This document shows positions 2,369 to 12,823 of a stretch of DNA of 28,905 nt, piece after piece. The stretch lies in the IMG/VR virus record IMGVR_UViG_3300008266_000341, positions 1-28,905 of that record, one strand, 5' to 3'. Origin of the DNA: a virus. Each line of letters begins with the position of its first letter. Position 1 is the first letter of the stretch. The notes below the pieces were generated by a model. The model saw only the letters and a list, made by a program, of their open reading frames with translations, searched no databases and was not told the DNA's origin. The translations under genes were made by a program, and so were the position numbers.

Positions 2369-2454
2369 AGGCAAGAGGGACGGTTCTGAAGCGTCGAAGG
2401 ATGTGCGCCTTCGGAGGCATAGGGTCGGGGCCGTCCCTCCCACCCGTTGCCTAG
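2365..2454 (+). CDS. Possible 29-residue basic peptide
   Basis: ATG 2365 overlaps the terminase stop in an ATGA arrangement and the frame runs to TAG at 2452-2454. The peptide is Arg/Lys-rich at the front (LKRRRM) and Gly/Pro-rich at the end, with no recognisable domain. Translational coupling is the only positive evidence; the stretch may simply be spacer between the terminase and connector genes. Its last codons overlap a copy of the TTGCC...CCGCAG element. Confidence 0.22.
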   Translation: MKARGTVLKRRRMCAFGGIGSGPSLPPVA

Positions 2455-2462
2455 ACCCGCAG
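2447..2462 (+). promoter_or_regulatory. TTGCC...CCGCAG start-proximal element, copy 1
   Basis: TTGCCTAGACCCGCAG ends four bases (attt) before ATG 2467. The following gene has no SD site. The element resembles the copies at 5454, 6866, 8717 and 12808. Its function is unknown; being this close to the start, it would act in translation or RNA processing rather than as an ordinary promoter. Confidence 0.5.
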
Positions 2463-2736: not shown

Positions 2737-4276
2737 GTCTACGAAGAAGAAAGTCGTAAAGCCTGCCACCAAGGCGCCGAAGAATCCGGTCATCGCCGGC
2801 GGTCCTGCGCCTAAGCAACAGGCTTACTCGGAAACCTTCGGCGGCGGAGGCTATCCGGCTGGCCCTCGATGGGAAAGCGTGACCCAAAGCAACGGCCGAC
2901 AAATCCTTTACATGGGCTCCAACGTGGACGCCCGTCGCGACCTCCGTTCCCGCGATCGCAACGTGATGGTGCGCAAGTGCCGCAACGCGGAACGCAACTA
3001 CGGGATGTACAACCAAATCCTCAACGACATGGTGTTGTACACTTCGGGAGACGGCATCCGTCCGCAGTCGCACGCGAGCACGCCCGAGGCCGCAAAGGCC
3101 TATGAGGAATACTTCGCAGAGCAGGCCAAGCGCATCGACATCACGAACCGCTTCTCGTTCTACCAGTGCCAGGGGATGCTAGTCCGCGCGCTCATCCGTG
3201 ACGGCGACTGCTTCGCCGCCAAGGTCCGCAACGGCCGAGACGAGGCGAAGATTCAAATAATCGAATGTCACCGAGTGGGCGACCCTGCCGACCGTGACAC
3301 GCCTGACCGATGCTGGGACGGCGTGCAGTTCGGAGAGTACGGCGAGATCGTAGGCTATTACGTCTACCGCTCCGACGGCTCTAGCCGGTTCATGCCGTCC
3401 AACTCCGTTATGCACGTTGTGGACCTTACCTCGTCAAGCGCATCCCGAGGCACTCCTTTGCTTCAGCATTCGGTCAACAGCTTGGCCGATCTCGACGAGA
3501 TCCTCGAAGCCGAGAAACGCGCGGTCAAGGACCAGTCGGAGGTTACGCGCGTCCTCAACAAGGCAGGCGGTTTCATCGACGACAACATGGCGGCCGAACT
3601 AGGCGGCGGAGACCGATGCTACTCCGGCATGGTCGAGCAGGCCGGCGGCAAGCTCATCGTCCTTGAACCCAACGAGAAGCTGGAACATCAGGAATCAAAG
3701 CGACCCAGCCAGACCTTTAACGGATTCGTGACCGAACTTCAGCGGGACATCGCCTTTGGCTCCCTGCCGTTTGAGTTCGTCGCGAATCCTCAAGCCCTGG
3801 GTGGAGCGTCCATTCGACTAGTCACTGCGAAGGCCGCGCGAGTCTTCGGAAAGTATCAGACTGTCATCATCGAAACCTTCTGTCAGCCGACTTGGGATTA
3901 CATCATCGCCGACGGCATCGCCAAGGGACTGATCCCTGACGACCCGCAGTGGTACGTCACGTCCTGGACCACGCCGAAGAGCGTGACCGTGGACGGCGGA
4001 CGAGACGCCGCGAACGACCGCGCCGACGTCGAGCTCGGGCTCCTGAGCATGAGCGAGCTCTACGCCCAGCGAGGCCTCGACTTCAGGACCGAACTCCAGA
4101 AGCGAGCCGACGACATGAACTACGTCATTGGCCTGGCCAAGGAAAAGAACCTCCCCGTGTGGATGCTTTACAAGCCCGGCTTCAACTGGCTTCAGCAGGG
4201 GCAGGCCGTCTCTCAGACTCCGAACGACGTGGCCGAGAATCTCGACCTCCCAACCCCTCCTCCTTCCAACCCCTAA
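2726..4276 (+). CDS. Portal protein, lambda gpB type
   Basis: Dodecameric ring at the unique capsid vertex, the channel for DNA entry and exit and the docking point of terminase and neck. The length of 516 residues is close to lambda gpB (533). The N-terminus is basic and disordered (KSTKKKVVKPATK). The core has the expected helical pattern, including YGMYNQILNDMVLYTSGDGI near residues 92-111, which matches the lambda-type portal style. A Pro/Gln-rich end (VSQTPNDVAENLDLPTPPPS) is probably flexible. The gene overlaps the connector and is followed after five bases by the protease GTG, in standard lambda B-C order. Confidence 0.92.
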   Translation: MASKSTKKKVVKPATKAPKNPVIAGGPAPKQQAYSETFGGGGYPAGPRWESVTQSNGRQILYMGSNVDARRDLRSRDRNVMVRKCRNAERNYGMYNQILNDMVLYTSGDGIRPQSHASTPEAAKAYEEYFAEQAKRIDITNRFSFYQCQGMLVRALIRDGDCFAAKVRNGRDEAKIQIIECHRVGDPADRDTPDRCWDGVQFGEYGEIVGYYVYRSDGSSRFMPSNSVMHVVDLTSSSASRGTPLLQHSVNSLADLDEILEAEKRAVKDQSEVTRVLNKAGGFIDDNMAAELGGGDRCYSGMVEQAGGKLIVLEPNEKLEHQESKRPSQTFNGFVTELQRDIAFGSLPFEFVANPQALGGASIRLVTAKAARVFGKYQTVIIETFCQPTWDYIIADGIAKGLIPDDPQWYVTSWTTPKSVTVDGGRDAANDRADVELGLLSMSELYAQRGLDFRTELQKRADDMNYVIGLAKEKNLPVWMLYKPGFNWLQQGQAVSQTPNDVAENLDLPTPPPSNP

Positions 4277-4281
4277 CTCCC

Positions 4282-5067
4282 GTGCGTTTCCTTTCCCAAG
4301 GCCTCCGAGGCCTCGAGCCTCTCCTCATCAATCCCGTCCGCGCGAAGGATTACGTCGAAGCGTCGAAGGCCGCCGGCCTCGGCGACATGATCGCGCAGCT
4401 CTTCGGCGAATCGCCCAAGCCCTACGTCGTCGGCAACGTGGCGGTCGTCCCGCTGTCTGGCCCCATCGGCAAGGGCGTCTCCCCTGTCGAGCGAATGATG
4501 GGCGCGGCCGACGTTGACGTGGTGTCGGGCTGGCTCGACGAAGCCGCCGAGAACCCCGCCGTGGAGAAGGTTCTTCTCTTCGTCAACTCCCCTGGCGGAA
4601 CGGTCACCGGCGTTCCTGAACTGGCCGCCAAGGTGGCCAACTTCCCGAAGCCGACCCGCGCCTTCGCGGATAACATGGCCGCCAGCGCCGGCGTGTGGGT
4701 GGCCTCGCAGGCTGACGAGTTCGTCGTCACGCCCTCCTCCCAGATCGGAAGCATCGGCGTCTACATGGTCGTCCCGAATCTCGAAGAGTACTACGCCGCC
4801 CAGGGCATCAAGTTTGAGGTCATCGCCGCCGGCGTCCACAAGGCTGCCGGAGCCGAAGGCCTTCCCCTCACGCCCGACCAACGCGCTTACCTTCAGGCCT
4901 CTGTCGAATCGACCCGTGACCAGTTCCGTGCCGCGGTCCGCAACAAGCGCCGCTTCGTGCAGGACGCCGACATGGAAGGCCAGCTCTTCTCGGGTAGCGA
5001 AGCCGCCGCCCGTGGTCTTGCCACCGGCATCGTCCAGAACTTCCGCGAAGCCCTCGCCTCTTTCTGA
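4282..5067 (+). CDS. Prohead protease, S49 / SppA-ClpP-like (lambda gpC type)
   Basis: A 261-residue serine peptidase expected to trim scaffold and portal during head maturation. The GTG at 4282 is chosen because the frame upstream lies inside the portal gene and homologues begin near this point; there is no good ATG. The fold signature is clear: a glycine motif VNSPGGTV at about 101-108, the nucleophile Ser135 in DNMAASAGVW, and the general base Lys187 in AAGVHKAAG, the Ser-Lys dyad of S49 peptidases. The stop overlaps the next ATG (TGATG), so the scaffold-containing gene is translationally coupled. In lambda, the scaffold Nu3 is made from an internal start in gene C; here it is a separate downstream gene. 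Confidence 0.9.
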   Translation: MRFLSQGLRGLEPLLINPVRAKDYVEASKAAGLGDMIAQLFGESPKPYVVGNVAVVPLSGPIGKGVSPVERMMGAADVDVVSGWLDEAAENPAVEKVLLFVNSPGGTVTGVPELAAKVANFPKPTRAFADNMAASAGVWVASQADEFVVTPSSQIGSIGVYMVVPNLEEYYAAQGIKFEVIAAGVHKAAGAEGLPLTPDQRAYLQASVESTRDQFRAAVRNKRRFVQDADMEGQLFSGSEAAARGLATGIVQNFREALASF

Positions 5068-5918
5068 TGTCCGTCCCCGTCCCTGACTACGTTTCCGAAG
5101 CCGCACGGCGCGGCCTTGAGTGGCACGCCGAAGGCAAGTCAGGGGACGGCGTGACCGACCAGACCATCCGCGAGGCTCGCGACATGGTGGCCGGAGAAGT
5201 GTCAGACGACAAGGTCCGCCGCATGGGGCCGTGGTTCCAGCGTCACCGGGCCGACATGGACGCACCCAAGAACAAGCCCGACAACGAAGATTTCCCCGGT
5301 GCGGGAGCCGTGGCCTGGGCGTTGTGGGGTGGACCGACCTCCGGCGACATCATGCGAACCGCCAAGTGGGCCGAAGACGAAGCCGCCCGTCTGGATCGTG
5401 AGGACGAAGACGACGATAATGGTGACGACGACGACCGCTCCGCGTCCGCCAAGTTGCCCACCTCCGCAATTTTTAAGACCATGACCATCGAAGAAAAACT
5501 CGCCGCCGCCGAAGCCCTCGTTGCTTCCGCCTCTGCCGAACGTGACGACCTCCGCGCCACCGTGGAGAAGCTCACCGTCGGCGCTTCCTCGGAAGTCGAA
5601 GCCCTCAAGGTCGAGGCCGCCAGCAAGGACGCCAAGCTCGTCGAGCTCGAAGGCCTCCTCGCCGCCTCCGCCAAACAGGTCGAAGAACTGACCGCCAAGG
5701 TCGCAGAACTCTCGGCCGTCCAGGTCAGCGCCTCGGCCGAAGCCGCGGCCATCGTGGCCAAGGTCGGCGTCGCCGCCGTGGACCTTCCCCAGGGCGACAG
5801 CCCGGTCCGTGCCACGGACAAGGAGATCGCGCAGCAGTACGCCTCGATGCCTGCCGGCCCCGAGCGTCTCGCGTTCCTCAAGAAGAACCGCGCCGCCATC
5901 TTCAACGGCAACAAGTAA
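5067..5918 (+). CDS. Two-part capsid scaffold protein with N-terminal phage morphogenesis domain
   Basis: 283 residues in two halves. Residues 1-100 carry a compact domain with ARRGLEWHAEGKSGDG, a central MGPWFQRHRADMD and AWALWGG, a combination I recall beside prohead proteases in other phages; its role is unknown. An acidic linker follows (DREDEDDDNGDDDD). Residues 139-283 form an Ala/Glu/Lys-rich coiled coil (about 140-235) and a short C-terminal helix with RLAFLKKN, as in scaffolding proteins that bind capsid protein through a basic C-terminus. Position between protease and capsid fits a scaffold. ATG 5481 (M139) is probably also used as a start, giving scaffold alone. The gene starts in a TGATG overlap with the protease. 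Confidence 0.75.
   Translation: MSVPVPDYVSEAARRGLEWHAEGKSGDGVTDQTIREARDMVAGEVSDDKVRRMGPWFQRHRADMDAPKNKPDNEDFPGAGAVAWALWGGPTSGDIMRTAKWAEDEAARLDREDEDDDNGDDDDRSASAKLPTSAIFKTMTIEEKLAAAEALVASASAERDDLRATVEKLTVGASSEVEALKVEAASKDAKLVELEGLLAASAKQVEELTAKVAELSAVQVSASAEAAAIVAKVGVAAVDLPQGDSPVRATDKEIAQQYASMPAGPERLAFLKKNRAAIFNGNK
5454..5469 (+). promoter_or_regulatory. TTGCC...CCGCA element inside the scaffold gene, copy 2
   Basis: TTGCCCACCTCCGCAA, then 11 bases, then the in-frame ATG 5481. Its first 15 bases are identical to copy 3 before the neck gene at 6886. Elsewhere the element precedes genuine gene starts, so its presence here argues that M139 is an initiation site. Within the long ORF these bases encode part of the linker (LPTSAIFKT). 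Confidence 0.5.
5481..5918 (+). CDS. Predicted internal-start product: free scaffold protein (Nu3-like)
   Basis: In-frame ATG 5481 (M139 of the long protein) would yield a 145-residue scaffold consisting only of the coiled coil and the C-terminal capsid-binding helix, without the N-terminal domain and acidic linker. Three things support it: the domain boundary falls exactly here; the start-proximal TTGCC...CCGCA element ends 11 bases upstream with the same spacer style (tttttaagacc) as the tail-tube gene (tttcaaagact); and lambda makes scaffold Nu3 from an internal start in a protease ORF. No SD site is seen. This is a prediction from context. Confidence 0.5.
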   Translation: MTIEEKLAAAEALVASASAERDDLRATVEKLTVGASSEVEALKVEAASKDAKLVELEGLLAASAKQVEELTAKVAELSAVQVSASAEAAAIVAKVGVAAVDLPQGDSPVRATDKEIAQQYASMPAGPERLAFLKKNRAAIFNGNK

Positions 5919-5955: not shown

Positions 5956-6810
5956 ATGTCCAACACCATCGCAGCCCAGCTCATCGTCGATACGCTGGCC
6001 GAACAGTCCAAGACCGTTCTCGCCAACCGCCTCGCCGCCCTCTCCCACTTCGCGTCCGACTTCTCGGGCGACGTCAAGAAGCCGAACGACACCATCCAGG
6101 TCTCGATCGCTTCCGCCACGGCCGCCACTCAGGTCAACCCGACCGCGTTCAACAACATCGGCGGCACGACCCTCTCGGCCACCGCGGTCTCCCTCGACCA
6201 CGTCTACCAGCCCTTCGGCCTGGAGTACTCCGACATCCAGAACGCCATCCGCCTCGAGCGCCTGGTGAAGATCAACCTCGACGCCCTCGCCGACAAGATC
6301 TGGGCTCTCGCCACCGCCCCCATCACCGTCGCCAACTTCGGCGCCGCCACCGTGACCGCCGCTGACTCGGCCGTCACCCCGGGCTCTGCCAACCTCAAGG
6401 CTCTCTGGGCTGGCGTCTCCAAGGCCGGCCGCAAGGCGCTCATCGTGAACCCTGGCATCTACAGCCAGCTCATCCCGACCAGCACCACCAGCCTGCCCCT
6501 CTCCGAAGGCGCTTACGGCTTCGACGGCGGCGTCTACTACGCCTCGCAGTTCCCCTCCGAACTGAAGCTGGCCGGCTTCGCCTGCTCCAGCGACGCCATC
6601 GCGATGGCGGCCGCGGCCCCTTCCCTCGACCACGTCCGCGACGGCATGCTCGTCTCGGAAGTCGTGACCCTCGAGAACCTGGGCATGAACATCTACTACA
6701 ACGTCTGGGCCGACAAGAGCACCCGCTCCCTCGTCGCCTCGGCCGAGCTGATGTTCGGCGCCTCGAAGGCCGTCACCTCGGGCACGATCGCCTCGGTCTA
6801 CAACCCGTAA
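5956..6810 (+). CDS. Major capsid protein
   Basis: A 284-residue protein directly after the scaffold, the usual place for the HK97-fold shell protein. The N-terminal segment is helical (AAQLIVDTLAEQSKTVLANRLAALSHFASDF), followed by alternating beta-rich, Thr/Ala/Val-dense stretches and a C-terminal MNIYYNVWADKSTRSLVASAELMFG, the kind of beta strand and hinge seen before the end of such proteins. Compositional bias is strong, with heavy use of GCC, ACC, GTC and CTC codons, as expected of the most highly expressed phage gene. The leader (taaccctttcccc... to ATG 5956) is C-rich with no SD site. A strong terminator lies 29 bases downstream. The family call depends on context and length. Confidence 0.85.
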   Translation: MSNTIAAQLIVDTLAEQSKTVLANRLAALSHFASDFSGDVKKPNDTIQVSIASATAATQVNPTAFNNIGGTTLSATAVSLDHVYQPFGLEYSDIQNAIRLERLVKINLDALADKIWALATAPITVANFGAATVTAADSAVTPGSANLKALWAGVSKAGRKALIVNPGIYSQLIPTSTTSLPLSEGAYGFDGGVYYASQFPSELKLAGFACSSDAIAMAAAAPSLDHVRDGMLVSEVVTLENLGMNIYYNVWADKSTRSLVASAELMFGASKAVTSGTIASVYNP

Positions 6811-6838: not shown

Positions 6839-6867
6839 AGACCCCCAGAAATGGGGGTCTTTTTTTT
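6839..6867 (+). terminator. Rho-independent terminator after the major capsid gene
   Basis: Perfect eight-base-pair stem AGACCCCC / GGGGGTCT around the loop AGAAAT, followed immediately by seven Ts. It is the clearest terminator in the window. It would end or attenuate capsid transcripts so that head-completion and tail genes, which are needed in fewer copies, are transcribed mostly by read-through. The T tract runs directly into the next TTGCC...CCGCAG element. Confidence 0.9.
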
Positions 6868-6881
6868 GCCCACCTCCGCAG
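6866..6881 (+). promoter_or_regulatory. TTGCC...CCGCAG start-proximal element, copy 3
   Basis: TTGCCCACCTCCGCAG ends four bases (aagt) before ATG 6886. It shares its first 15 bases with the copy inside the scaffold gene 1.4 kb away. Here it is not in frame with the following gene, so conservation cannot be explained by protein coding. No SD site is present. Confidence 0.55.
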
Positions 6882-6885
6882 AAGT

Positions 6886-7266
6886 ATGAGCCTATACGGT
6901 CAAGAGTTTTTGGACGACGCCAAGGAGATGACCTATGACTTCGGCATCCCGTGCGCCACGGCCGGCTCGACCGTCACCTTCTCGGCCCTCATCTCGGAAC
7001 CCGCCTACACCACCGTCCTCGAATCAGGGGGGTATTGTGAGCGGACCCAGTACACCGTCCGCCTCCCCGCCGCAACGGCCTCCTGGACGAAGCCAGACGG
7101 GTCTAATGGGGCATCGGCGGCCGTCCTCTCAGGGGGCGTCCCCATCCCCGCCCTGGGCATCGGCAAGAAACTGACGGTCGGGGGCAAGGTGGTCCGCGTC
7201 ACCAGCCAGACCTACAAGACCCTTTCGGCTTGGATCACCCTGATCGTCGTTGACGACAACCAGTGA
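6886..7266 (+). CDS. Probable head-closure / head-tail joining protein
   Basis: A 126-residue beta-rich protein directly after the capsid gene, the place of neck proteins such as lambda gpFII. The pattern of strands around STVTFSALISEP, YTVRLPAATASWT, IGKKLTVGGKVVRVTS and AWITLIVVDD fits a small beta barrel of the kind that seals the portal and accepts the tail. The ATG follows a CCGCAG element; the end overlaps the next frame (GTGA). No diagnostic motif; the assignment is from order and predicted fold. Confidence 0.5.
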   Translation: MSLYGQEFLDDAKEMTYDFGIPCATAGSTVTFSALISEPAYTTVLESGGYCERTQYTVRLPAATASWTKPDGSNGASAAVLSGGVPIPALGIGKKLTVGGKVVRVTSQTYKTLSAWITLIVVDDNQ

Positions 7267-8716: not shown

Positions 8717-8732
8717 TTGCCCGTTCCCGCAG
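8717..8732 (+). promoter_or_regulatory. TTGCC...CCGCAG start-proximal element, copy 4
   Basis: TTGCCCGTTCCCGCAG followed by the 11-base spacer tttcaaagact and ATG 8744. The spacer length equals that of the copy inside the scaffold gene. The gene could formally start at the TTG at 8717, but ATG 8744 is a better start for a tail-tube protein. Confidence 0.5.
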
Positions 8733-12807: not shown

Positions 12808-12823
12808 ATGCCCGACCCCGCAG
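12808..12823 (+). promoter_or_regulatory. TTGCC...CCGCAG-type element, copy 5 (ATGCC variant)
   Basis: ATGCCCGACCCCGCAG followed by 14 bases and ATG 12838. The first T is replaced by A, which creates an ATG that automatic callers would take as the start. The flanking GGG before and TTTT after match copy 4 (GGG-TTGCCCG-TT-CCCGCAG-TTT). Confidence 0.42.

Follow-up and report, generated by a model that had tools for sequence, protein, structure and literature searches.

The long gene that follows the head maturation protease in the window, by which we mean the whole 28,905-base stretch analysed here (IMG/VR virus record IMGVR_UViG_3300008266_000341), is highly likely to contain two in-frame starts, from which a domain-tagged scaffold and a bulk free scaffold would be produced, with an exchangeable slot upstream of the inner start. 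At the sequence level, the gene and its relatives were found to combine a conserved ATG and leader, differing upstream modules on near-identical scaffolds, and an open frame. A second start signal very probably lies inside the scaffold gene of this uncultured phage family. Translation from both starts, the ratio of the products, their co-assembly and the delivery of a cargo are what we infer from this arrangement, the main features of which are as follows.

4282-5067, plus strand: S49-family head maturation protease, a separate gene with a GTG start assigned by inspection
5067-5918, plus strand: long gene for the putative domain-tagged scaffold, 283 aa; the in-frame fusion is also present in relatives
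5067-5396, plus strand: conserved N-terminal domain (module A, residues 1-110), related to part of phrog_2859, of unknown function
5397-5453, plus strand: acidic linker of variable length, of low confidence in the AlphaFold2 model
5454-5480, plus strand: leader also present in domain-free relatives, where it fills the gap from the protease stop to the scaffold start
5481-5918, plus strand: nested gene, candidate free scaffold of 145 aa from ATG 5481 (M139), proposed from sequence conservation
5956-6810, plus strand: presumed major capsid protein, by position only

The product of the gene at 4282-5067 was identified as a protease by both Pfam (Peptidase_S49, 4.7e-27) and PHROG (phrog_53, head maturation protease, 3.5e-54), and its TGA stop overlaps the ATG at 5067 of the long gene (TGATG). 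For 5956-6810, Pfam and PHROG gave no family match, and the major capsid assignment was thus made by position only. A model of the long product built with AlphaFold2 from 31 homologues consisted of the N-domain, a disordered acidic stretch (residues 118-131, pLDDT under 50), a helix spanning residues 141-233 and C-terminal helices. The predicted fold of residues 141-233 with the C-terminal helices looks scaffold-like, and this fold and the position of the nested part together suggest a scaffold function. The PHROG scaffold match was 4.5e-4 for the whole protein, and the nested part alone showed no significant one (best scaffold family, E 0.12); a tblastn search of 50,697 phage records with the scaffold part returned no match at E 0.1, scaffolds being proteins that diverge fast. 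Both the layout and the model confirmed the location that the sequence-only reading had assigned to ATG 5481, namely the junction between the N-terminal domain with its acidic linker and the coiled-coil scaffold.

In a first alignment of the best 80 of 113 relatives, with the window, an in-frame ATG marked the junction in all 80 rows that cover it, window included. It occupied the M139 column in 75 rows and stood two or three codons further upstream in the remaining 5 (ATG-GCC-CTT in L016 and L018; ATG-AGC-AAR in L054, L061 and L069), while the linker in front of it varied freely. Homologues without a Met at this point, which according to the sequence-only reading would refute the internal start, were not encountered among these rows. 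Three profile scans took the best 80 of 540, 476 and 511 relatives, respectively, and the census comprised 315 loci with the scaffold, 5 of which were truncated before the ATG position, leaving 310 covered. A script searching up to 7 codons either side of the profile start found the junction ATG at, or no more than 3 codons before, that start in 309 of these 310 loci (292 at offset 0, 6 at -2 and 11 at -3). The exception, L128, also has an ATG, reading ATG-ACC-ATC and then a stop within the scaffold; this stop, near 3000, lies three codons past the scaffold ATG, and may reflect either an error or a dead gene. These rows come from best-80 lists, share ancestry and include some repeated contigs; since contigs recur among the census loci, 230 distinct DNAs remain.

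These 230 DNAs comprised 95 free scaffolds, 72 fused to domain A, 39 fused to a HAD phosphatase domain and 13 carrying both A and HAD in a single frame, together with 5 carrying A as its own gene before a HAD fusion and 6 that were truncated. The junction ATG was kept whatever lay upstream, be it domain A, the HAD domain, both or nothing. At the free loci, the protease stop was located within 60 nt before the ATG in all 122 cases with a protease detected (3 had none). The proposal that M139 serves as an internal start for a free scaffold was therefore supported at the sequence level, as many relatives devoid of the domain appear to begin at the equivalent ATG.

Clear cases of modules differing on one and the same scaffold, independent of any tree, are apparent from the sequences of two sets of loci: L071 (domain A), L185 (none) and L186 (HAD), whose scaffolds are identical at 133-135 of 135 residues, and L269 (none), L273 (HAD) and L274 (A-HAD), which carry nearly the same scaffold. 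L185 and two similar loci retain an apparent domain-A remnant, MKVPD, fused straight to the linker with the domain interior missing. For module comparison 304 of the 315 loci were retained; those in which the script located no ATG, or that were shorter than 120 aa, were dropped. A tree was built from 96 scaffolds after thinning each module class separately at 95% identity and excluding the 6 truncated loci. On this tree the module labels needed 35 changes, close to the shuffled mean of 38.4, and thinning within class raises this count by keeping near-identical scaffolds with different modules; the starred branches alone force at least 15 changes for A, 12 for free and 7 for HAD. The tree, made by a quick method from few columns, shows changes without the direction of domain gain versus loss. 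A search for domain A in 16 records chosen from loci lacking it, with the window as positive control, came back negative, as did a search of four further records without a positive control, and any of these records may be fragments. In 15 loci, among them L145, L274 and L112, one frame runs through domain A, HAD and scaffold with an ATG at each junction; since the ATG of the HAD domain itself was kept in all 15 A-HAD fusions, three nested in-frame starts are possible, judging from sequence, where both modules are present.

This conservation of the HAD start codon is also what would be expected if the internal start were used and the tag were not, the upstream domain either acting alone or being a by-product of same-frame read-through. 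Likewise, in five loci (L194, L196, L197, L199 and L200) domain A has a gene and a stop codon to itself, upstream of a HAD-scaffold fusion, and hence can work unfused. This explanation is nevertheless unlikely in view of how the frame is preserved: the 72 distinct domain-A fusions have 16 linker lengths, all in frame (although "in frame" is here part of the class definition), the 39 HAD fusions keep the frame over 8 linker lengths, and at the census loci no stop codon was seen to interrupt the stretch from an adjoining upstream module to the start of the scaffold. The only unfused neighbours were these five loci and L128, the stop of which lies inside the scaffold. Since the frame stays open across linkers of so many lengths, the fusion itself is probably kept too.

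With regard to the modules themselves, a fold search with domain A gave no PDB match at E under 1.8, and BFVD located it in other phage head proteins as well as a domain-A-like fold in an uncultured phage HAD-like protein. As with the matched part of phrog_2859, domain A occurs within head-region genes; in contrast to its position on the scaffold in the window, it lies within the prohead protease of Pontimonas phage phiPsal1 and in a gene of Roseobacter phage CRP-821 that carries a major capsid protein annotation. The stretches of cultured-phage head genes holding domain A were L343 2501-2716, L344 2501-2704 and L345 2501-2686, and the annotations of these genes were prohead protease, major capsid protein and minor head protein. 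The HAD module, which is present in relatives and absent from the window, was modelled with a pLDDT of about 90 over residues 1-110 and gave a Foldseek match to the T4 Pnkp 3' phosphatase, 5uj0 (E 1.9e-5, TM 0.68 on target), a PHROG match to phrog_415 polynucleotide kinase (1.1e-8) and Pfam Hydrolase_6 scores of 28.3 bits in L124 and 23.4 in L140 against a cut-off of 27. Six residues, D7, D9, T11, T37, K74 and D93, were invariant in 15 sequences, and we take them to be the catalytic motif positions of a HAD phosphatase. The module of the relatives thus has both the fold and the catalytic residues of the HAD class, of the T4 Pnkp type, and is a putative phosphatase; its fold matches that of the 3' phosphatase domain (HAD superfamily) of T4 polynucleotide kinase, but it lacks the kinase half and is fused to a scaffold. 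The HAD-scaffold gave no match in the phage records, and is therefore known here only from metagenomic viruses.

The conserved ATG is preceded by a conserved leader. When the free loci were paired with their nearest fused relatives (89 pairs with a mean scaffold identity of 95%; a fused neighbour within the 80% limit was available for 89 of the 95 distinct free loci), identity was 0.72-0.91 at positions -1 to -24, and 0.14-0.27 at -31 to -60 and 0.25-0.40 from -61 to -90. The upstream DNA common to both thus amounts to some 24 nt directly preceding the ATG, with little beyond. Other fused clades, and the HAD group, have this leader in another reading frame, which indicates that it is conserved as nucleic acid rather than as protein. 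In the window it contains TGCCCACCTCCGCA, a copy of the element TGCCCNNNNCCGCA, the copies of which are located as follows.

5455-5468, plus strand: copy at the scaffold start, before ATG 5481
6867-6880, plus strand: copy before ATG 6886
8718-8731, plus strand: copy before ATG 8744
12809-12822, plus strand: copy before ATG 12838
2448-2461, plus strand: copy with one mismatch, before ATG 2467

The element occurs four times exactly in the window, always on the plus strand, compared with expectations of 0.13 copies for both strands (order-1 model) and 0.06 for the plus strand (order-2), and every exact copy lies just upstream of a gene start (5481, 6886, 8744 and 12838); if the one-mismatch copy at 2448 is counted, it precedes five gene starts. 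It was present in 8 of the 18 records searched, with 30 exact copies in total that lay on a single strand within each record, and was absent from the other 10, which are more distant relatives; the reversed control gave 3 matches in total in the 18 records. The copies precede four orthologous starts, with element-to-start distances of 12 nt for the scaffold, 5 for the gene after the capsid gene, 5-15 for gene 12838 and 12 or 13 for gene 8744. The distance for gene 8744 increases to 41-42 nt in a few loci, and a ribosome site of fixed spacing is hardly possible there. The interval 6840-6886, which separates the presumed capsid gene from ATG 6886, holds a terminator-like GGGGGTC with a T-run, followed directly by the element. 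A hairpin, UUGC-N8-GCA, was considered within the element and dropped because, by eye, UGC is replaced by UUC in other clades with no matching change in GCA. As a host signal the element was likewise rejected, not being enriched in two Verrucomicrobiota MAGs (10 exact matches versus 30 for the reversed control). Judging from these sequences, it is a phage-specific leader restricted to the phage clade of the window. The start-proximal element described earlier from the sequence is real, although its spacer measures 12 nt rather than 11, and among homologues it is the leader of about 24 nt that is common to free and fused relatives, TGCCCNNNNCCGCA itself being limited to 8 of the 18 records searched.

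A Shine-Dalgarno (SD) sequence at 5481 was looked for and rejected: none was found, and the element is not one but, if anything, resembles the anti-SD strand. SD-like 4-mers were present at only 4 of 37 hand-picked window starts, compared with 15% at random positions, and because SD is not enriched in the window, its lack at 5481 is not evidence against a start there. The local RNA structure was also assessed, as the minimum free energy of the 60 nt around each in-frame ATG, in 126 of the 129 distinct fused genes. In 116 of these 126 genes no other in-frame ATG was less structured than the scaffold ATG, which had a median structure percentile of 2.7% versus 52% for 655 other in-frame ATGs, a low value to which AT-richness contributes. 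Synonymous change over all 83 distinct fused genes was lowest at about residues 133-156 (0.52-0.6 of expected; median 0.95), although in the clade of the window alone (17 genes) this dip was not the lowest of the gene.

Such properties bear on the alternative that only the full-length protein is made, Met139 being structural and any free scaffold arising by protease cleavage in the linker. The adjoining gene does encode a head maturation protease, and the acidic linker was modelled as disordered. However, cleavage would leave unexplained that free relatives start at the junction ATG with no domain upstream, that the Met, although in certain clades it sits two or three codons away, is never lost, that the upstream DNA is conserved in different frames, and that the local RNA structure is minimal at precisely this ATG, and we regard this alternative as very unlikely. 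That the free scaffold begins at TTG 5454 instead, which is in frame 27 nt upstream of ATG 5481 in the clade of the window and is the first codon past a stop in L097-L099, is highly improbable, since this TTG is absent or out of frame in the HAD group and other fused clades, and since, in L169, an in-frame stop comes after the TTG that holds the corresponding position ahead of gene 8744. By the same stop, TTG 8717 was judged probably wrong as the start of gene 8744; the longest-ORF starts 8717 and 12808 are both probably wrong, the likely ones being 8744 and 12838.

Under the two-start explanation, start 1 (ATG 5067, overlapping the protease stop) would yield a probably scarcer scaffold with the N-terminal domain, and start 2 (ATG 5481, behind an unstructured, SD-less leader) would yield the bulk free scaffold. 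The two forms would co-assemble via the common coiled coil, and the tagged form would thereby bring its domain into the procapsid. The slot before start 2 would be exchangeable, accommodating domain A, the HAD phosphatase domain, the A-HAD tandem or nothing. More tentatively, the 5' end of the scaffold gene may represent a recombination slot in which cargo domains are exchanged, stacked or dropped before a fixed inner start, so that plain scaffold is always made and, optionally, some copies carry into the procapsid an enzyme-like domain, either the conserved head-associated domain or the Pnkp-like 3' phosphatase.

In lambda, the scaffold Nu3 is made from an internal start in gene C. As in C/Nu3, the putative scaffold of the window forms the in-frame 3'-terminal part of a longer head gene, before the capsid gene, with an S49-type protease function adjacent and two products, here predicted, having the scaffold part in common; at the sequence level, the internal start codon is conserved and has its own leader. 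In contrast to lambda, the longer product is not the maturation protease, which is unfused and encoded by its own gene at 4282-5067, but a swappable small domain plus scaffold, and the inner start is SD-less. This bears out the earlier remark that the gene comes after the protease, differing from lambda, and we file the arrangement as one that would work like C/Nu3, not as a member of that class. According to PMC8508860, protease and scaffold share one gene in lambda and P2; the same article cites Shaw and Murialdo 1980, on the overlap, by title. Within the accessible portions of the open-licence literature, the scope of the search, no report of the present arrangement was found.

As for the host, domain A had only two matches in the genome collection, both of them Verrucomicrobiota MAG contigs (4.3 and 14.9 kb), and the assignment of a phage contig to a bin gives a weak hint of a Verrucomicrobiota host. 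PMC10783764 describes some Verrucomicrobia as SD-scarce, and the scarcity of SD-like 4-mers at the window starts fits such a host.

If the two-start explanation is true, nested scaffold genes are not bound to the protease as in lambda, and would offer a general route for loading procapsids. The many natural swaps supply pairs of scaffolds that are nearly the same but differ in whether a putative cargo is attached, and TGCCCNNNNCCGCA would represent a start-associated element in an SD-poor phage. ORF callers that give the long gene only would miss what is likely its main product.
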